DNA of 64,000 bases from Planctomycetota bacterium (GTDB lineage Bacteria; Planctomycetota; J058; J103): positions 248,001-312,000 of the forward strand of contig BPJM01000003.1 in the NCBI GenBank assembly GCA_026004615.1. The letters are read 5' to 3'. The translations under genes were made by a program, and so were the position numbers. Below are positions 27,859 through 36,540 of this stretch, in pieces. The notes under the pieces are model-generated. The model made no database searches. It was not told the DNA's origin and saw only the letters and a program-made list of their open reading frames with translations. Positions within the stretch are counted from its first letter, which is position 1. The number at the start of each line of letters is the position of its first letter.

Positions 27859-28545
27859 TCACGGCCCGTGCACTCCTGCCGCGCGCAGCCGCCGGCGCAG
27901 GCGCTGGCGCGCGCGGTGCAACGCCGCGCCCACCGAGTTGGTGCTGATGCCCAGCTCGCGCGCGATCGCCTGGTAGTCGCGATCTTCGAAGTAGAAGCGG
28001 ATCAAAACTTTGCGGTCGCGCTCGCCCAGCTCCGCCAGGCACGCCCGCACCGCCTCCTCCAGGTCCCCCGCGGCCGCGGCGCCGAGCGGGTCCCGTGCCA
28101 GCGCCTGCAGTTCGGCGACGTCCAGCTCGGCGGCGAGCCGGCGCCGGCGCAGGTAGCGATGGGCCTGGGTGCGCGCCACCACGCCGACGTAGGTCGAGAG
28201 CGCGAAACGCGGGTCGTAGTTGCGCAACAGGTGGAAGTCGTCCTTGACGAAGGCGTAAAAGGTGTTCTCGCAGATGTCCTCGACGTCGTCGGGCGCGGGG
28301 CTGAGGCCGCGGGCGCGCAGCGTCCGGCGCGCCACCGCCATGATCAGCGGCGCGTAGCGCTCGACGAAGCGCTCCCACGCCCCTGGGGCCTCGGCGCAGC
28401 AGGCCTCGACCAGCGCCAGACCGTCCAGCGCGCCAGCCTGCTGGCGTGCCGGCTCCGCTGCGCGGCGCGAGCGGGCGCTCGCCCTCCGTGCCGGCTCGGC
28501 CCCGGCCTCCGAGCGGGAGCGCAGCGGGTAGAGGTGACTGCTCAA
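27859..28545 (-). CDS. ECF-family RNA polymerase sigma factor
   Basis: 228 aa from the TTG at 28545, chosen because GGAGGG lies 5 nt upstream; frames continuing further up give only Pro/Arg-rich sequence. Region 2 (about residues 50-125: WERFVERYAPLIMAVARRTL ... DDVEDICENTFYAFVKDDFHLLRNYD ... LSTYVGVVARTQAHRYLRRRR) and region 4 (LGERDRKVLIRFYFEDRDYQAIARELGISTNSVGAALHRARQRL) are intact, with no sigma-1.1 or region 3, as in ECF factors. It is followed by the FecR-type anti-sigma gene. Both genes of this pair appear to use rare TTG starts with strong ribosome sites, which may keep their levels matched. Confidence 0.85.
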   Translation of the reverse strand: MSSHLYPLRSRSEAGAEPARRASARSRRAAEPARQQAGALDGLALVEACCAEAPGAWERFVERYAPLIMAVARRTLRARGLSPAPDDVEDICENTFYAFVKDDFHLLRNYDPRFALSTYVGVVARTQAHRYLRRRRLAAELDVAELQALARDPLGAAAAGDLEEAVRACLAELGERDRKVLIRFYFEDRDYQAIARELGISTNSVGAALHRARQRLRRRLRAAGVHGP

Positions 28546-28901
28546 GCGGGCCCTCCCGGCCGGGGTCGGTCCCCGGCGCGGCACCGGGACCGGGCGCACG
28601 CGGGCGCCGAGCAGGCCGGTCCCAGGCACCGCGCCCTCCCCGGGCACCGCAAATCCCGTTCGTCTGCGGCCCGCGCGCAGGCGCACCCCGGGCGTGGACA
28701 CAACGCTTGATCCGGGCCGTGGTTACTGATAGCGTCGGCAGGGGCCCCGGGCCGGGGCGGGCACCGGCGACCTCCGGGCTGCGACGCAAAAGCGTCCCTG
28801 CGGGACGATTCCGGCGCGCCAGGGGCTGCGCGCCGCTGGGAGACCGCGCCCACCCGGCGCGCGGCGCGGCCGGGCCCGGCTGCGGGCAGGAGGAGGTGGC
28901 G
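28546..28901. other. Divergent spacer between the ECF sigma and CPBP protease genes
   Basis: 356 nt. Translations in all frames are Arg/Pro/Ala-rich and look non-coding. I found no good promoter, although AT-rich bases at 28715-28735 (around ttactgatag) are the most likely place for one on either strand. Confidence 0.35.
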
Positions 28902-29600
28902 GTGGCGCGCGGCCGGCCAGCCGGAGCGGACGATCCGATCGGCGAGGTCCTCGCCGCCTGGGCGGCGGCGCTGGTGCTGTCCAGCGCGGCGTGGCTATGG
29001 CTGCCGCGCACCTGGGCGCAGCTGCTCGCCCCGGCGAGCTGGGCAGGGGTCGCACTGTCGGTGGCGCTGGTGTGGCACCGCGATCCGCGCCGCTTCGGGC
29101 TGGTGTGGCGGCGGCCGCTGCGGGGCCTGCTGGTGTGCGGCGCCTACGCGCTGGCGGTTCTGCCTTTGTTCGCGCTCGGGTGGTGGGTGTGGTTCGTCTG
29201 GCTCGGTGGGGCGAGCTGGCAGGCGCCACCGCCCGCGCTGTGGGGGGCCGCGTTCGTGCGCCACCTGCTGCTGGCGGGCCTGCCCGAGGAGCTGTTCTTC
29301 CGCGGCTATGCCCAGCAGCGGCTCGCCGACGGGCTGGGTCGGGCGCGCCGGCGCGTGCTGGGCGCGCCGCTGACGCCGGCGGTGGTGGCGGCGGCGGCGC
29401 TGTTCGCGCTCACCCACCTCGCCTTCACCAGCGAACCCCTGAGCGCTGCCGGCGCGGCGCGGCTGTTGACCTTCCTGCCAGGGCTGCTGTTCGGAGCGCT
29501 GCGCGAGCAGACCGGGGAGGTGTTCGCGCCGGCACTGCTGCACGCGCTGTGCAACGCGGTGCTCATCGGGCTGGAGAGCGGGCTCGGCTCCGCGGGCTGA
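28902..29600 (+). CDS. CPBP-family intramembrane metalloprotease
   Basis: 232 aa from the GTG at 28902 (AGGAGG 5 nt upstream; another GTG 6 nt earlier is possible). Six or so transmembrane helices. The three family motifs are complete: EELFFRGY (two Glu and the Arg), FALTHLAF (His) and HALCNAV (His and Asn). CPBP proteins (formerly Abi/CAAX) are glutamate-type intramembrane proteases used for prenyl-protein processing, bacteriocin immunity or release of membrane-held regulators. Lying between two ECF/anti-sigma loci it could take part in anti-sigma cleavage, but that is inference. It is transcribed apart from both. Confidence 0.85.
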   Translation: MARGRPAGADDPIGEVLAAWAAALVLSSAAWLWLPRTWAQLLAPASWAGVALSVALVWHRDPRRFGLVWRRPLRGLLVCGAYALAVLPLFALGWWVWFVWLGGASWQAPPPALWGAAFVRHLLLAGLPEELFFRGYAQQRLADGLGRARRRVLGAPLTPAVVAAAALFALTHLAFTSEPLSAAGAARLLTFLPGLLFGALREQTGEVFAPALLHALCNAVLIGLESGLGSAG

Positions 29601-29615: not shown

Positions 29616-30677
29616 TCAGAAGTCGCCGCGCGGCGCCGGCTGCTCTGCGGGCGGTGCGGGCTGCTGCTCGGGTAGCGTGCGCTCCGGGGCGGCGGCCGGC
29701 GTGTGCGCGCGCAGCTGCTCGGCCTTGCCGGCGCGCACCACCCGCAGCGTGTGCTCTCCCGGCTCGCGCAGCGCGAGCAGGTCGTCGGGGTGCGCGACCG
29801 GGACCCCGTCGATATGGGTAACGATGTCCCACTGCCGCAGCCCCGCGCGCGCTCCCAGACCGTGCGGCTCGACCCTGGCGATTGCCACCCCGCCCTCGCC
29901 CTGGAGCCCCAGCTGCGCGCGCACCAGCGGACCCAGCGGTTCGGTCTTCAGACCGAGCGCGCCCTCCGGCGGCGCCTGCGCCTGCCCGCCGCGCTCGAAG
30001 ACCCACTGGCCATCCTTGAACCGGAAGGTCCAGAAGTCGCGGAACACCGGCGGCCGCTCGCCCCGCGTCTCGCGCAGCGCGCGCTCCAGCTCCGCAAACG
30101 CACGCTGCAGCTCCGGCGCCAGCAGATCGCGCAGCCGCCGCGAGGGCTCCAGCGGCCGGGCCGGCTCCGGCGCCAGGCGGCCGAGCTCGCGCTCGAGCTC
30201 GCGCAGCGCCTCGGCGAACAGCTCCCCGAACTCCGCGGGCCCATCGGGGCGCGGGGCGCGCTCGAGCTGCTCGCCCCGCCACGCGGGCTGAGGCTGCTCG
30301 GCGCCCGGGCGGGCGGCCGCGCGCGCGCGCACCGCCTTGAGCGCCTCGGCGGCGCGCCAGCGCACCTCCGGATCGGGGCTCTGGGCGGCGCGCTCCAGCG
30401 CCGGGATCGCCTCCGGCCCCGCCGCCGCGAGCGCGCGCGTCGCCTCCTCGCGCACATGGAAGTCCGCCGCTCCCAGATCGCGGATCCAGTCCTCGATGCT
30501 CCTGGCCGCGGCGCGGGCCGGCCGGTCCTCGCCGGCGCTCCCTTGCGCTGCGCGGTCGCCCGCCGCGGGGGCCGCCCCGCCCCCGCCGTCCGGGGCAGCC
30601 AGCGCGGCCGTCCCCGGTCCCAGCAGCGCCAGGATCACCGACCACCTCGCAAGCCGCGATGCAGCTCTACGCGCCAT
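29616..30677 (-). CDS. Exported HEAT-repeat/PDZ-domain protein
   Basis: 353 aa starting at the third of three in-frame ATGs (30677), which is best spaced from GGGAG. A signal peptide (SVILALLGPGTAALA) is followed by one or two HEAT repeats (about residues 50-110: FHVREEATRALAAAGPEAIPALERA, PDPEVRWRAAEAL), a charged helical middle (130-210) and a PDZ domain near residues 250-330 (VAIARVEPHGLGARAGLRQWDIVTHIDGVPV). It ends in a Pro/Gln-rich tail. PDZ domains bind C-terminal peptides or misfolded termini; here there is no protease domain. It is the last gene of the ECF operon, after the protease-dead HtrA-like protein, so I suggest it is a periplasmic scaffold of that pathway. Confidence 0.8.
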   Translation of the reverse strand: MARRAASRLARWSVILALLGPGTAALAAPDGGGGAAPAAGDRAAQGSAGEDRPARAAARSIEDWIRDLGAADFHVREEATRALAAAGPEAIPALERAAQSPDPEVRWRAAEALKAVRARAAARPGAEQPQPAWRGEQLERAPRPDGPAEFGELFAEALRELERELGRLAPEPARPLEPSRRLRDLLAPELQRAFAELERALRETRGERPPVFRDFWTFRFKDGQWVFERGGQAQAPPEGALGLKTEPLGPLVRAQLGLQGEGGVAIARVEPHGLGARAGLRQWDIVTHIDGVPVAHPDDLLALREPGEHTLRVVRAGKAEQLRAHTPAAAPERTLPEQQPAPPAEQPAPRGDF

Positions 30678-30798
30678 GCCCATCGCTCCCATCCTCGATC
30701 TCCGCCGGACCGCCCCACCGGAGTCGCACGGGGTCCGTCCTGCCACGCTTCGGTACGCCGCGCGACGGCCGGGCGTTGGCGTGCGCGCGGGCGCTGCC

Positions 30799-32136
30799 TC
30801 AGCGCGGCTCGAGCCGGATCTCGAGCCGCTGTCGCTCGCCCGCGCGCACCACCTCCAGCACCACGCGCTGGCCGGGCTGGCTCTCCGCGAGCAGGCGCTG
30901 CAGGTGGTGCACGTGCTCGATCGGGACCTCGCCGAAGCGCACCAGCACGTCGTGGGGCTGCACGCCGGCGCGCGCGGCCGGGCTGCCGGGCAGCACGCCG
31001 AGCACCAGCGCGCCGTGCTCCAGCTCCACCCCCAGGCGCGCGGCGACGGCGGCATCCACGCTCAGCACCTGCAGCCCCAGCCACGGCCGCGGCCGGGCGC
31101 TCTCGGCGCGCAGCCGCTCCACCACGTCCTCGACGCGCGCGATCGGCAGCGCGTAGCCGCTATGGCCCGCTCCGGCGGGCAGTGCCGCCGCCGCGTGGAG
31201 CAGCCGCGCCCAGCGCCGCGCATGCGCTGCGGCCGCCCCCTCCCCGCTCTCGGCGGGTGCGGGCGCGCGCTCGCCGCCCGGTTGTGGCGCCGGCTCCGGC
31301 TCGATGGCGGCGGCGAGCAACCGCTCGAGCAGCTGCGCCAGCTCCAGCCGCTGGCGCTCGGACCACAGCGCCGGGCCGGCACTGCCGAGCGCTCCGCCCA
31401 CAACCCCGACCACCTCGCCCCGCACGTTGACCAGCGGCCCGCCCGGATCGCCCGGGTGCACCGGGGTGGTGACCTGGATCAGCCCCTCCAGGCGCCGCCC
31501 CTGGTGCGCGAGCGTCCGCTCCAGCGCCGCGACGTTGCCGAGCGCCACCGAGCCGCCCTGGCCGTAGGCGTTGCCGAAGGCCAGCACCAGGCTGCCGGGG
31601 CGGAGCGGCGCCGGCGTGGCGGCGCGCGCCAGCGGCACGAACTCCTGTCCAGCCGCCGCGGGCTCCACGCGCAGCAGCGCGATGGCGGTCGGCGGATCGG
31701 TGCCGAGCAGCCGGGCGGGCAGCGTGCGGCCGCCCAGCCGGACCTCGATCGCCTCCGCGCTGGCGAACGCGCGGCCCAGGCTCACCACCAGGCCGTCCGC
31801 GCTCCACACGAAGCCGCTGAGCACGACCGTGTCGCGCCGCGGCACGAGCGGATCCACCGCGACCAGGCGCCGCACGCTCACCTGGACCACCGAGGGTGCG
31901 ACCCGCGCGACCAGCCGCTGGACGGCGCATTCCAGCGCGAGCAGGGCGTCGGTGTCGGCCGGCGCCCCGCCGGACTCGCCGGCCGCCCCGTCCCGCTCGC
32001 CGGCGAGAGCGGCTGCCGCCGGCGCTGGCGCACCGGCGCCGCGCTGCTGCTCGGCGTGGCCCCGGGGCGCTGCCGCGAGCAGCGCGCCCAGCGCTGCCAG
32101 CAGCGCCGCGGCCCGCCTGCTCCAGCTCGTGCGCAC
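30799..32136 (-). CDS. HtrA/DegP-like trypsin-fold PDZ protein lacking the catalytic triad
   Basis: 445 aa from the GTG at 32136 with GGGGAGG 8 nt upstream; signal peptide ending around residue 28 (PRGHA). The trypsin fold is clear at about 72-250 (APSVVQVSV, SGFVWSADGLVVS, PLRPGSLVLAFGNAYG, PVHPGDPGGPLVNVRGEVVGVVGG), and a PDZ domain ends the protein (LGVELEHGALVLGVLPGSPAARAGVQPHDVLVRFGEVPI). Relative to HtrA, the His of 'TNxHVV' is gone (SLGRAF near 119), the Asp of 'DxxTDLAVL' is Ala (TAIALL, about 151), and the nucleophile Ser in GNSGGPL is Pro (GDPGGPL, about 231). It cannot be a serine protease of the normal kind. Losing all three while keeping the fold suggests selection for binding, for example peptide sensing. 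Confidence 0.85.
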   Translation of the reverse strand: MRTSWSRRAAALLAALGALLAAAPRGHAEQQRGAGAPAPAAAALAGERDGAAGESGGAPADTDALLALECAVQRLVARVAPSVVQVSVRRLVAVDPLVPRRDTVVLSGFVWSADGLVVSLGRAFASAEAIEVRLGGRTLPARLLGTDPPTAIALLRVEPAAAGQEFVPLARAATPAPLRPGSLVLAFGNAYGQGGSVALGNVAALERTLAHQGRRLEGLIQVTTPVHPGDPGGPLVNVRGEVVGVVGGALGSAGPALWSERQRLELAQLLERLLAAAIEPEPAPQPGGERAPAPAESGEGAAAAHARRWARLLHAAAALPAGAGHSGYALPIARVEDVVERLRAESARPRPWLGLQVLSVDAAVAARLGVELEHGALVLGVLPGSPAARAGVQPHDVLVRFGEVPIEHVHHLQRLLAESQPGQRVVLEVVRAGERQRLEIRLEPR

Positions 32137-32324
32137 CGCTCGCACCTCCCCGTCTGTGCCGCTGCCTTCTGCCGGCGCACCGAAGCCAGGCCGGTCCGCT
32201 CGCCGTCCCGATGCCGGAGCGCGGCGCGCGCCGGCCCGGACGGTCCCGGCCGGGCTCGCCTCCGCCGGCTGCTGCCGCATGGCAGGCGCGCGGCCCCGCA
32301 CCGAGCTCCGGTGCGCCGGCGGTG

Positions 32325-32972
32325 CTAGAACGAGAGCACCTCGCGCTCCGGCTCCTCGGGGGCGCGCCAGCCATCGAGCGGGTACAGGCGTGCGGGCGCG
32401 CCCAGCGCGCCCTCGGCCGGCTCCGGCTCGAGCCCCGGGCCGCCCACGCGCAGCAGCCCGGTCGGATCGGCGATGCGGCCGCCCGCGGCGGCGGGCAGCA
32501 GGGCCTCGCGCGGGCTCAGCGCGCGCAAGCCCTCTGCCGCCGGCCCGCCGCGCCGCTCGCCCCCGCCCTCCCCGGGACCGTACAGCGCGAAGGCGAGCAG
32601 GACCGCGGCCGCCGCCGCCCCCAGCCGCAGCACCAGTGCGAGGCGGCGCTGGCCCCAGCCCGCCCGGGGCTCCAGCCCGGGCCCGGCCCGCTCCGCTCCG
32701 GGCGGTGCCTCGCCCAGCCGGCGGGCGAGGCCACGCCAGAACGCCTCGGCGTCCGCCACCGCCGCCGGCAGCGCCTGCTCGCGCGCGCTGTCCGCCCGCA
32801 GCACCGCCAGCCGCTCACGGTCGCGGCGCAGCGCGTCCTCGTACGCCGCACACCGCGCGCAGCCGAGCAGGTGCGCCTCGGTCGGCCCGAGCATCGCCTG
32901 CGGCAGATCGTCGCCGACGTACAGCGGCAACAGCCGCTGCACCGTCCTACAGCTCAGCGTCGCCCTGTCCAT
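32325..32972 (-). CDS. Zinc-finger anti-sigma factor, single-pass membrane
   Basis: 215 aa. The anti-sigma zinc finger spans about residues 8-42: Cys8, then HLLGCARC giving the His-x3-Cys-x2-Cys pattern. A charged linker leads to one transmembrane helix (LALVLRLGAAAAAVLLAFALYG, about 110-132) and a roughly 80-residue periplasmic tail without known domain. The start overlaps the end of the ECF sigma gene by 26 nt, the usual coupling of sigma and its inhibitor. It should hold the sigma factor at the inner membrane until its periplasmic tail is cleaved or bound. Confidence 0.8.
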   Translation of the reverse strand: MDRATLSCRTVQRLLPLYVGDDLPQAMLGPTEAHLLGCARCAAYEDALRRDRERLAVLRADSAREQALPAAVADAEAFWRGLARRLGEAPPGAERAGPGLEPRAGWGQRRLALVLRLGAAAAAVLLAFALYGPGEGGGERRGGPAAEGLRALSPREALLPAAAGGRIADPTGLLRVGGPGLEPEPAEGALGAPARLYPLDGWRAPEEPEREVLSF

Positions 32973-33711
32973 CTCGCTCTTGCTCGCCCTGTAGCTGCTG
33001 CTGGCCGGCGGCCTCGCCCCCGTCCCCGTAGAGCTTCTCCCACTGCTCGCGGAACAGCGCGCGCGCGCGGTGCAACCGCCAGCGCACGGTGGCGTGGGTG
33101 GAGTCCACCATGTCCGCCACCTCCTTGGCCGTGAAGCCCTCCAGCTCGCGCAGCACCATCACCTGCCGGTACGCGGGCGGCAGCCGGTCCAGCACGCGGC
33201 GCACCCGCTCCGCCAGCTCGCGCTGCTCCAGCCGCGCGTGCACCGGCAGGCTGCCGCCGTCCATCTCGCCCAGCTCGTCGAACGACACGTTGCGGCGCGC
33301 GCCGCGCTTGCGCAGGTAATCGACGGCGAGGTTGCTGACGATCCGGTACAGCCAGGTATAGAACCGGTAGCGCGGATCGAATCGCTTGAGCGAGCGATAC
33401 ACGCGGACGAACGCCTCCTGGGCGATGTCGACCGCGTCCTGTTCGTCGCCGACCATGTGGTAGGCGACCCAGTAGACCCGCTTGCGGTAGCGCTCCACGA
33501 GCGCGCGGAAGGCTGCCTCGTTGCCGCGCTTCGCCTGGGCGATCAGTTCGTTCTCGGCGGTGTGCTCGGCGGACACCTCGCTCTCGCCTGCGGTGGCGCC
33601 CACCCCCGCCATGCGGGCGCGGTCCGACCGGGGCCGCGAGCGCAGCGCCCTCGCCGGCGCCGGCAGCGCGGCCGATCGCTCCAGCCGCAGGGGTGAGGTC
33701 AGTGCCGTCAC
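32947..33711 (-). CDS. ECF-family RNA polymerase sigma factor (RpoE-like)
   Basis: 254 aa from a GTG at 33711 (GGGGAGG 9 nt upstream). Region 2 is canonical (ELIAQAKRGNEAAFRALVERYRKRVYWVAYHMVGDEQDAVDIAQEAFVRVYRSL) with the -10-reading FYTWLYRIVSNLAVDYLRKR, and region 4 reads LPPAYRQVMVLRELEGFTAKEVADMVDSTHATVRWRLHRARALFRE. About 50 residues before region 2 are disordered. The C-terminus is Gln/Glu-rich and overlaps the anti-sigma gene. It is second in a five-gene operon whose other products are envelope proteins, so envelope stress is the likely signal. No matching promoter motif could be identified without its regulon. Confidence 0.9.
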   Translation of the reverse strand: MTALTSPLRLERSAALPAPARALRSRPRSDRARMAGVGATAGESEVSAEHTAENELIAQAKRGNEAAFRALVERYRKRVYWVAYHMVGDEQDAVDIAQEAFVRVYRSLKRFDPRYRFYTWLYRIVSNLAVDYLRKRGARRNVSFDELGEMDGGSLPVHARLEQRELAERVRRVLDRLPPAYRQVMVLRELEGFTAKEVADMVDSTHATVRWRLHRARALFREQWEKLYGDGGEAAGQQQLQGEQERDGQGDAEL

Positions 33712-33770
33712 GCCATCCTACCTCCCCGCGTCCCCTCCGGCGAGCCCCCGCTCCGGGGCCGCCCTCGGGG

Positions 33771-34799
33771 CTAGTACTCGCCCGGCTCGCCCGAGGGGCG
33801 CGGGCGCGACTCGCCCTCCGGCCGCGCGGTGCCGGCGCCCGCGGCGGGCTGGGACGGCGTGGCGGCGCGGCGGGCCTCGCCGCGCCGGCGCAGCTGCTCC
33901 AGCAGCCGCTCGAGCTCCGGGTCCTCCTTGGCCCGCTCCTCGAGCAGCCGCTCCGCCTCCTCGCGCAGCCGCTCGAGCACCCGCGCGGTGCGCTCGCTCT
34001 GCGCAAGCGCCCGCAGCCGCGCCCGCCAGCGCTGCCCGCTCAGCTCGCGCCCCAGCCGGCGGTCCAGCTCGCGCACCAGGCGCAGCCGCCGCTCGACCGC
34101 CTCCCGGGGCAGCTCGAAGCCCTCGACGAGCACCTCGGCCAGCCGGTCGTACAGCTGCTCGCGCTCGCGCTCGCGCGCCCGCTCCGCCTCCGTGAGCGCC
34201 TGCTCGTCCTGGGCGTTGAGTGCCGCGAGCAGCTCGGCGACCAACGTCTCCAGCTGGGGCGGCACGCCCTGCTCGAGCGGCGACTCGCCGCGCTCCAGCC
34301 GCTGCTGCATGCGCTGGAGCAGCTCGGCCCCGCCGTTCGCCAGGAACCTCTGGATCGCCAGCACGAACGGGCGCAGCTGCACGTCCTTGCGCAGCACCAG
34401 CCGGCCATGCGGCCCCGGCTCGGCGACGATCTCGAGCGCGATCTCCAGCGGGGCCCCGGGCACGCCCTCCAGTCCACTGTCCTCGCGCAAGACCACCCGG
34501 CCGCGCTCGGCGTCCCAGCGCGCGAGCTGGTTGAGCTGCGCCTCCAGCTGCAGGCGCAGCAGCATCTCCTCGGCCTCGGCGCGCCGGCGTGCCTCGGCGG
34601 CCCGCCGCTCGGCCTCCGGGTCGGCCTGCGTGCGGCCGGTCCCGCCACTTTGCTCCCCGGGGGCCGCCGGTGGGGCGGCGCGCGCCACGACGGGCAGCGC
34701 CGTCACCGCGCCCAAGAGCACCACCCCCAGCGCCACCGCGGCCGAGCCGGGCCCGCGGGCCCACGCGCCGCGCCTGCTGCCCTGCCTGTCTCGCCTCAC
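33771..34799 (-). CDS. Exported charged coiled-coil protein, first gene of the ECF operon
   Basis: 342 aa from the GTG at 34799 with GGAGGA 7 nt upstream. A signal peptide (VALGVVLLGAVTALPVVARA) leads to a mature protein that is mostly helical and highly charged. A short beta part near residues 95-145 (GRVVLREDSGLEGVPGAPLEIALEIV... GRLVLRKDVQL) is followed by helices that look like a coiled-coil hairpin (200-320, 'ERAREREREQLYDRLAEVLVEGFEL' and 'RVLERLREEAERLLEERAKEDPELERLLEQL'). It resembles small periplasmic chaperones or Spy-like sensors in composition but no family motif is seen. It ends 59 nt before the sigma gene. Confidence 0.75.
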   Translation of the reverse strand: MRRDRQGSRRGAWARGPGSAAVALGVVLLGAVTALPVVARAAPPAAPGEQSGGTGRTQADPEAERRAAEARRRAEAEEMLLRLQLEAQLNQLARWDAERGRVVLREDSGLEGVPGAPLEIALEIVAEPGPHGRLVLRKDVQLRPFVLAIQRFLANGGAELLQRMQQRLERGESPLEQGVPPQLETLVAELLAALNAQDEQALTEAERAREREREQLYDRLAEVLVEGFELPREAVERRLRLVRELDRRLGRELSGQRWRARLRALAQSERTARVLERLREEAERLLEERAKEDPELERLLEQLRRRGEARRAATPSQPAAGAGTARPEGESRPRPSGEPGEY

Positions 34800-34933
34800 C
34801 TGTGCGTCCTCCGCGCGCCGGCGCCCCGCCCTGCAGGTCGAGCGCGCGCCGCTGGCCGCTGCCACGGGGCAGGGGCAAGGGGCGCCGCTCGCCTCGGGGC
34901 GACGCCCGGTGATACGCCGCGGCGGGGGCCGCT

Positions 34934-34961
34934 GTTGGCCGTTGCGCGCGGTGCGGTATGA
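34934..34961 (+). promoter_or_regulatory. Promoter for the patatin-methyltransferase operon
   Basis: TTGGCC (34934-34939), a 16-nt spacer and TATGAT (34956-34961). The start site near 34968 gives a leader of about 60 nt including GGGAGGA before the ATG at 35029. Confidence 0.55.
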
Positions 34962-35028
34962 TGGGGCGCGCCAGCGGGATGGCCTGCGCGCCCAGGCAGC
35001 ACCCAGCACCGGGAGGACACAGCCAGCG

Positions 35029-36540
35029 ATGAGCGGGACGGAGGCGGCAGCGGCCGAACGCGTGCTGATCCTGGGCGAGCACGAACGCCACACCGCCGAG
35101 GCGCGCGCGCGGCTCGCCGCCTTCATGGAGCAGAGCGGCCGGCCGCTGGAGATCTGGAGTGTGGGCGGGCTGCAGGCGGCGCTGCCGCTCTTGGACAGCT
35201 ACCTCGATCTGATCGTGCTGGCGTATCCGGAGCAGCCCGCCGCCCATGCGCTGCCGGCGATCCAGAGCCTGCGGCAGCGCTACGGCGGCCGCATCCTGCT
35301 GGTCAACGACGACCCGGCGGTCGACTCGTGCACCTGGGGCCGGCGCCACCAGATCGACGTGCACCTGCGCTCGCTGGATGAGCTGCCCGAGGCGCTGGCG
35401 CGGCTGTTGTTGCGCGAGCGGCGGCGCGGTCGCACGGCGCTGGTGCTGGCGGGGGGCGGCATCCTGGGCGGCTTCAACGAGGCCGGCAGTCTGAAGGCGT
35501 TGTACGACTTCGGGATCCGCGACTTCGACATGTACATCGGCATCTCGGCGGGCTCGGTGGTGGCGGCATGCGCCGCCAACGGCGCGACGCCGGAGGAGCT
35601 CTTGGAGCACAAGGCGCTGGGGCTCTTGGATTTCTACTGGCCCAACCTGCGCGAGGCGGGCCAGCGGCTCGTCTCCTTCCTGCCGGCGGCGGTACGGCGG
35701 GGCGCGGAGTATCTGACGCTGGAGCACCGCGACGCGCTGTTTTTGCTCTCCAGCCTGTTCACCGCCTCGGCGTTCCTGTCCAACCGCCGCATCGCGGACA
35801 AGCTGCGGCGGGTGTTCCGGCTCAAGGGCGGCACCAACAGCTTCCGCACCCTGCGCGAGCGCGGGCGGCGGCTGTATGTGATGGCGGTCGACCTCGACGC
35901 GGCGAGCACGCGGGTGTTCGGCGAGGACGGCGACCTCGATGTCCCGATCGACCAGGCGGTGGCCGCCTCGTGTGCGCTGCCGCTCGCCTACGCGCCGGTG
36001 CGGGTCGACGGCCGCGACTACATCGACGGGGCGGTGGCCCGCACCGCGGGCCTGGATGTGGCGGTCGACAACGGCGCCGATCTGATCGTCTGCATCAATC
36101 CGCTGGTGCCGTACACCGGTGGGGAAGCGGGCACGATCAAGGGCCTGGGGATGCTCGGGGTGCTGGAGCAGTCCTACCGCACGATCCTGCAGCAGCGGCT
36201 GCACCAGACGATCGAGTACTACCGCCACACCCGGCCGGACGTCGCCATCATCCTGATCGAGCCCGACCCCACCGACGCGACCATGTTCCACAACCCGCTG
36301 AACGCGGTCGAGGCCCTGATCACGCTGGCGGCGCTGCACGGATTCAAGTCGACCCGGCGCACGATCGAGGCGCGTTTCGACTTCATCCGGCGCGCCTTCC
36401 AGAACCACGGCCGGCCCATCACGCGCGAGGTGGTGGACGAGGAGTTCGAAGTCATGGTGGACCGCGACTTCTCGCTCGAGGTCATCGAGCGCGTGCTGCA
36501 GCGCAACCGGCCGCCGGTCGAGCACCACGTGTTCGAGTAG
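35029..36540 (+). CDS. Patatin-like phospholipase with N-terminal pseudo-receiver domain
   Basis: 503 aa. Residues 10-125 read like a response-regulator receiver fold (RVLILGEHERHTAEARARLAAF, DLIVLAYPEQPA, GGRILLVNDDPAV) but the phospho-accepting Asp at the end of strand 3 is Ala65, so it is not phosphorylated in the usual way. The patatin domain starts at about 133: oxyanion loop GGGILGG (142-148), nucleophile elbow GISAG with Ser173, and the Asp333-Gly334 of the catalytic dyad (YIDGAVAR). The dyad is complete, so acyl hydrolase activity on phospholipids is expected. About 100 extra C-terminal residues follow the core. No membrane segment is seen. It is followed after 34 nt by a methyltransferase gene in the same operon. 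Confidence 0.85.
   Translation: MSGTEAAAAERVLILGEHERHTAEARARLAAFMEQSGRPLEIWSVGGLQAALPLLDSYLDLIVLAYPEQPAAHALPAIQSLRQRYGGRILLVNDDPAVDSCTWGRRHQIDVHLRSLDELPEALARLLLRERRRGRTALVLAGGGILGGFNEAGSLKALYDFGIRDFDMYIGISAGSVVAACAANGATPEELLEHKALGLLDFYWPNLREAGQRLVSFLPAAVRRGAEYLTLEHRDALFLLSSLFTASAFLSNRRIADKLRRVFRLKGGTNSFRTLRERGRRLYVMAVDLDAASTRVFGEDGDLDVPIDQAVAASCALPLAYAPVRVDGRDYIDGAVARTAGLDVAVDNGADLIVCINPLVPYTGGEAGTIKGLGMLGVLEQSYRTILQQRLHQTIEYYRHTRPDVAIILIEPDPTDATMFHNPLNAVEALITLAALHGFKSTRRTIEARFDFIRRAFQNHGRPITREVVDEEFEVMVDRDFSLEVIERVLQRNRPPVEHHVFE

Follow-up and report, generated by a model that had tools for sequence, protein, structure and literature searches.

Several bacterial envelope-stress systems couple a sigma factor to PDZ proteins of the HtrA type. 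In Escherichia coli (RpoE–RseA–RseB–DegS–RseP), an extracytoplasmic function (ECF) sigma factor is held by a single-pass anti-sigma factor, an HtrA-fold PDZ protein takes part, and aromatic C-terminal ligands provide the signal. DegS is activated by YxF ends, which its PDZ domain binds, and in the Pseudomonas system (AlgU–MucA–MucB–MucC–MucD with AlgW and MucE), AlgW is activated when its PDZ domain reads the MucE end SVRDELRWVF (PMC8545111). In mycobacteria, too, an htrA gene adjoins those for sigma and anti-sigma (sigE/rseA–htrA–tatB), and its product is described as a serine protease (PMC10027907). The magnetosome protein MamO is a degenerate HtrA with a non-catalytic role that promotes the proteolysis carried out by a partner HtrA (PMC4794232). 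Here, we describe a five-gene operon in a stretch of 64,000 nucleotides (the window) from a Planctomycetota bacterium (GCA_026004615.1, contig BPJM01000003.1, forward-strand positions 248,001 to 312,000). Its genome (G000) is a 3.87 Mb draft that is 78% complete. The operon appears to encode a circuit of the RpoE/AlgU kind in which the HtrA-like member has lost its catalytic residues.

In order of transcription, the operon comprises:

33771..34799, minus strand: exported coiled-coil protein; GTG start with GGAGG; C-terminus -GEPGEY
32947..33711, minus strand: ECF sigma factor; Pfam Sigma70_r2 (1.7e-21) and r4_2 (6.8e-13)
32325..32972, minus strand: membrane anti-sigma factor; PF13490 (zf-HC2), E 7.7e-6, 26.3 bits against a cut-off of 22.2
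30799..32136, minus strand: exported pseudo-HtrA; Pfam Trypsin_2 and one PDZ domain; catalytic triad changed H to R, D to A and S to P
29616..30692, minus strand: exported HEAT-PDZ protein; HEAT_2 (3.2e-8) and PDZ_6 (2.4e-7); C-terminus -APRGDF

All five genes run in one direction, from 34799 to 29616 on the minus strand, as a first-pass annotation of this DNA had it, and the overlap it reported between the sigma and anti-sigma genes amounts to 26 nt. It also described the other gaps as short, which holds for the roughly 59 nt between the coiled-coil and sigma genes. It does not hold further down: the gap between anti-sigma and HtrA is 23–188 nt, depending on the HtrA start codon (GTG at 32136 is preferred, 32301 is possible), and the gap of about 106 nt between HtrA and HEAT-PDZ contains a second promoter-like site. 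The sigma factor consists of regions 2 and 4 only, and the adjoining anti-sigma has an Hx3CxxC domain and a transmembrane helix, which places the pair among ECF sigma factors with zf-HC2 membrane anti-sigmas (class I). The coiled-coil protein has no significant Pfam match.

With the E. coli system, the locus shares the ECF sigma factor, the single-pass anti-sigma, the HtrA-fold PDZ protein and the aromatic C-termini, as well as an RseP-like protease elsewhere in the genome. It differs in that the HtrA is catalytically dead, the aromatic end sits on the anti-sigma itself, HEAT-PDZ and coiled-coil genes are added, and no RseB gene is seen in the operon. MucD and AlgW are active proteases, whereas the operon HtrA described here is dead at every one of 51 loci. 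For the mycobacterial locus, neither a HEAT-PDZ gene nor an aromatic anti-sigma end is described (PMC10027907), and MamO acts in metal binding and biomineralisation, not in sigma control. The arrangement is not mentioned in a review of ECF sigma factors (PMC8103513); the main ECF classification, which lay outside this comparison, may already list this sigma group and the genes around it. A survey of PDZ proteins counts a PDZ expansion in planctomycetes, without a link to anti-sigma factors (PMC6411480).

When aligned to MucD, the window HtrA reads R/A/P at the triad positions, and the His-Asp-Ser triad is incomplete in 51/51 HtrA-like proteins encoded directly behind a sigma/anti-sigma pair, with the His left in none of them, the Asp in 2 and the Ser in 5. 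Elsewhere in these loci, 15 of 22 HtrA domains have an intact triad, and G000 itself encodes several intact HtrAs. The fold, by contrast with the triad, is retained: an AlphaFold2 model built from 17 sequences (pLDDT 72.7, pTM 0.64) keeps a trypsin-like barrel followed by a PDZ domain, as in the HtrA/Do family, and a fold search with it matches DegP, DegQ and DegS. Of 47 proteins, 46 also keep the PDZ loop motif that binds carboxylates. The window protein scores below the cut-offs of TIGR02037 (175 against 416), of the DegS model (114 against 423), so that it does not qualify as an active DegS-type site-1 protease, and of the MamO family (41.4 bits, far under 800). Judged by these residues, the operon HtrA is a pseudoprotease, unable to cut, which agrees with the earlier claim that the operon encodes two PDZ proteins without protease activity. 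An AlphaFold2 model of the HEAT-PDZ protein, based on two sequences only (pLDDT 48), was unusable.

The operon core is conserved across Planctomycetota, with a linkage far beyond chance. Sigma matches at E<=1e-28 occur in 174/292 sampled genomes of the phylum, and our comparison covers 98 sigma-anchored loci including the window (1.275 Mb), picked by similarity to the window sigma and drawn largely from metagenome-assembled genomes, with gene starts and domain calls of the relatives taken from simple profile searches. The usual order is a coiled-coil or multi-PDZ protein, sigma, anti-sigma, HtrA-like protein and HEAT-PDZ protein, often followed by another HtrA. The sister genus (same family, G001) has the same five genes in the same order, the last one cut by the contig end, and coiled-coil homologues occupy the same position in L087, L089, L090, L097-L100, L103, L106 and L108. 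HEAT-PDZ genes are adjacent in most relatives, and a search of 58 relatives found HtrA-like and HEAT-PDZ genes adjoining each other in many genomes; some lineages retain sigma and anti-sigma without PDZ genes. As a control, 19 paralogous ECF loci of the same genomes showed no PDZ, HtrA or HEAT neighbors and no aromatic anti-sigma ends. Relatives outside Planctomycetota (L010-L025) gave ordinary HtrA matches with no such sigma/anti-sigma operon adjoining, in a search that reached close relatives only. Gene order thus holds across the phylum instead of dissolving into scattered orthologs, and the five genes behave as a single unit, as the first-pass annotation had proposed, and apparently as an autoregulated one.

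HtrA-type PDZ domains bind hydrophobic C-termini, and the anti-sigma factors offer such an end. In the window, the anti-sigma has a cytoplasmic zf-HC2 domain (HLLGCARC), one transmembrane segment near residues 111-130 and an extracytoplasmic tail of about 85 residues that ends in -REVLSF. A transmembrane segment is found in 39/41 anti-sigmas of pseudo-HtrA operons, followed by a tail with a median of 80 residues. Of these 41, 28 end with F and 4 with Y (F/Y 32/41), compared with a background of 5.6% F/Y ends among 756 open reading frames in these loci. In 17/41, a D precedes it, often as -DF; the rest of the tail varies, with no other position common to more than 11/41. When loci with and without a pseudo-HtrA are compared, F/Y ends occur in 35/51 and 8/36, respectively (Fisher 2.7e-5), some of these tail assignments having been read by eye. 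Four anti-sigmas (L168, L180, L170, L177) are fused to a PDZ domain of their own and lack the aromatic end. Together, the conserved, exposed aromatic terminus and these natural fusions support the earlier guess that the tail is a PDZ ligand, as which we predict it to act.

Similar ends occur on the other products. The window HEAT-PDZ protein ends in -RGDF and the coiled-coil protein in -GEY, while coiled-coil homologs have tails such as -EVY, -RFF, -RLY and -KLY. In the family f2, the ends are mostly -REV[KR]F (anti-sigma), -[RS][DS]F (HEAT-PDZ) and -LY (coiled-coil protein). Anti-sigmas preceding a dead HtrA end in N at L161, L172, L176 and L182 (-EKN, -ERN, -ESN and -ERN), perhaps a different type of ligand. 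At L099, L103 and L106, the anti-sigmas apparently lack zinc-finger ligands, yet -REVKF or -TFRF ends are kept.

When the DNA upstream of the sigma gene was searched for pairs of spaced words, CCAAC-N16-CGTA ranked first. Allowing N16/17, the 98 loci hold 56 copies on the operon strand versus 1 on the opposite strand; reversed and swapped control motifs give 3/6 and 3/5 in the same loci. The base after CCAAC, which lies outside the search pattern, is a purine in 51/56. The window contains exactly two copies (shuffle mean 0.20):

34913..34938, minus strand: putative promoter P1, CCAAC-N17-CGTA, ahead of the coiled-coil gene with which the operon begins; found in the same place in G001
30754..30779, minus strand: putative promoter P2, CCAAC-N17-CGTA, between the pseudo-HtrA and HEAT-PDZ genes; the sister genus has a copy at this position as well (L259)

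This motif is likely the promoter of the operon, and we infer that the sigma factor uses it because it stands ahead of the sigma operon phylum-wide. GGAAC-type promoters upstream of sigma were rarer than in shuffles, and the textbook form GGNAAC-N17-CGT, with 62 genome-wide matches versus 51 for its reversed control, was not clearly above background.

Sites common to G000 and G001 precede the coiled-coil gene, the HEAT-PDZ gene and the genes for a DUF5117/5118 protein, a TraB-like lipoprotein, a 204-residue exported protein and, probably, an RND adaptor. By our own estimate, about 0.01 shared targets would be expected by chance. These putative targets are envelope proteins, which a regulon for envelope stress would have to contain. 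The TraB/GumN-like lipoprotein ends in -REPVLY in both genera (L238, L258), a further aromatic C-terminus among the products behind such sites. The presence of other envelope proteins in the regulon, the separate promoter-like site of HEAT-PDZ, and the several intact HtrAs and RseP-like protease of the genome would also suit a different reading, in which the pseudo-HtrA and HEAT-PDZ proteins serve simply as chaperones or scaffolds under sigma control, while some unrelated PDZ protease recognizes the tail as DegS would. We regard this as unlikely: the dead HtrAs are strictly tied to one sigma/anti-sigma pair, paralogous ECF loci lack such genes, and anti-sigmas have naturally become fused to PDZ domains.

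Our leading interpretation, held tentatively, is instead an autoregulated envelope-stress circuit of Planctomycetota that uses inactive PDZ proteins to read and shield the anti-sigma tail. The zf-HC2 domain of anti-sigma factors is established as the part that holds sigma, and at rest it would keep the sigma factor bound here. The single-pass anti-sigma exposes its variable tail, whose aromatic carboxylate end would be bound by the PDZ domains of two exported proteins, the pseudo-HtrA and HEAT-PDZ. Since the pseudo-HtrA cannot cut, we propose it as a reader or shield that grips the tail. Stress-exposed C-termini with similar ends might then compete it off, so that an active protease, for instance one of the intact HtrAs of the genome, could reach the tail, followed by RseP, and sigma would be released. 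Free sigma would transcribe its own operon, HEAT-PDZ, a cluster of HtrA genes and other envelope genes from CCAAC-N16/17-CGTA. Held with slightly more reserve is the specific proposal that the -DF end of the anti-sigma is the signal, that the inactive HtrA and HEAT-PDZ evolved to read it, and that competition for the PDZ groove, not activation of a sensing protease, operates phylum-wide.

The final cut might be made by one of the intact HtrAs, by the RseP-like protease or, in two families, by an adjacent CPBP protease. The RseP-type site-2 protease (PF02163, G000:C5:276036-277748) is unlinked to the operon. The HtrA cluster (L250, G000:C2:325500-333500), directly behind a CCAAC-CGTA site, encodes one intact HtrA and two dead ones, of which one has five PDZ domains; similar HtrA genes adjoin the sigma operon in L106, L090, L089 and L108. 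Since these enzymes could cleave the anti-sigma, the earlier assertion of a sensing logic necessarily unlike that of DegS is too strong, although an envelope-stress circuit as such is plausible on these sequences. The intact HtrA of the cluster would also fit an adaptor role, in which the pseudo-HtrA forms a complex with an active HtrA, delivers the tail-tagged anti-sigma and promotes its cleavage. MamO sets the precedent by promoting MamE-dependent proteolysis (PMC4794232), and an intact HtrA lies in the neighborhood behind the operon at 12 loci (L091, L094, L096, L114, L117, L120, L122, L124, L137, L163, L168, L169). No intact HtrA adjoins the operon in the window or at most f2 loci, and this role seems somewhat doubtful to us. 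We favor shielding over delivery, though the sequence does not decide the direction.

Several observations weigh against our leading interpretation. Roughly one in three pseudo-HtrA loci has an anti-sigma without a terminal F/Y, and family f2 has no HtrA in the operon, yet has aromatic tails and HEAT-PDZ. When placed on the tree, the association between tail and pseudo-HtrA goes in the right direction and is not significant, as too few independent changes are available to prove it there. The reader of the tail might instead be an active PDZ protease. Finally, the genome as a whole holds no excess of the motif (17 sites versus 29 for the reversed control), so its count was dropped as proof of a regulon, and the promoter argument rests on position and conservation.

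The adjacent protease gene converges with the operon:

28446..29600, plus strand: CPBP/Rce1-like intramembrane protease, a possible accessory protease; PF02517 (1.8e-17); motifs EELFFRG...FALTH...HALCN; coordinates are those of the open reading frame, the true start probably lying further in

We take this family to be related to PrsW, and the protein might make the first cut in the anti-sigma in the manner of PrsW. Its motifs are intact and it is adjacent in both f1 genera and three f2 genomes, in differing orientations. With adjacency at only 5 of ~100 loci (window, L088, L097, L098, L100), such a cut is highly improbable, and the protease was rejected as a general partner of the operon. On the other side, a patatin-like phospholipase gene (GGGILGG, GISAGS; about 35010-36540, plus strand) diverges from the operon and shares the intergenic region with P1. 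Just downstream of the operon lies a second ECF sigma gene with a zf-HC2 anti-sigma-like protein of 670 aa that has a large C-terminal part (28701-25787, minus strand).

Envelope-stress control in Planctomycetota is largely unstudied, and this locus offers a complete, testable circuit: its parts are conserved, two genera have a small regulon in common, and a promoter motif and a defined ligand–receptor hypothesis come with it. If the proposal is true, proteolytic sensing has been rebuilt around pseudoproteases strictly linked to one sigma factor, with natural gene fusions hinting at the interaction. This suggests an envelope alarm that may work by gripping protein tails, rather than by cutting them directly.

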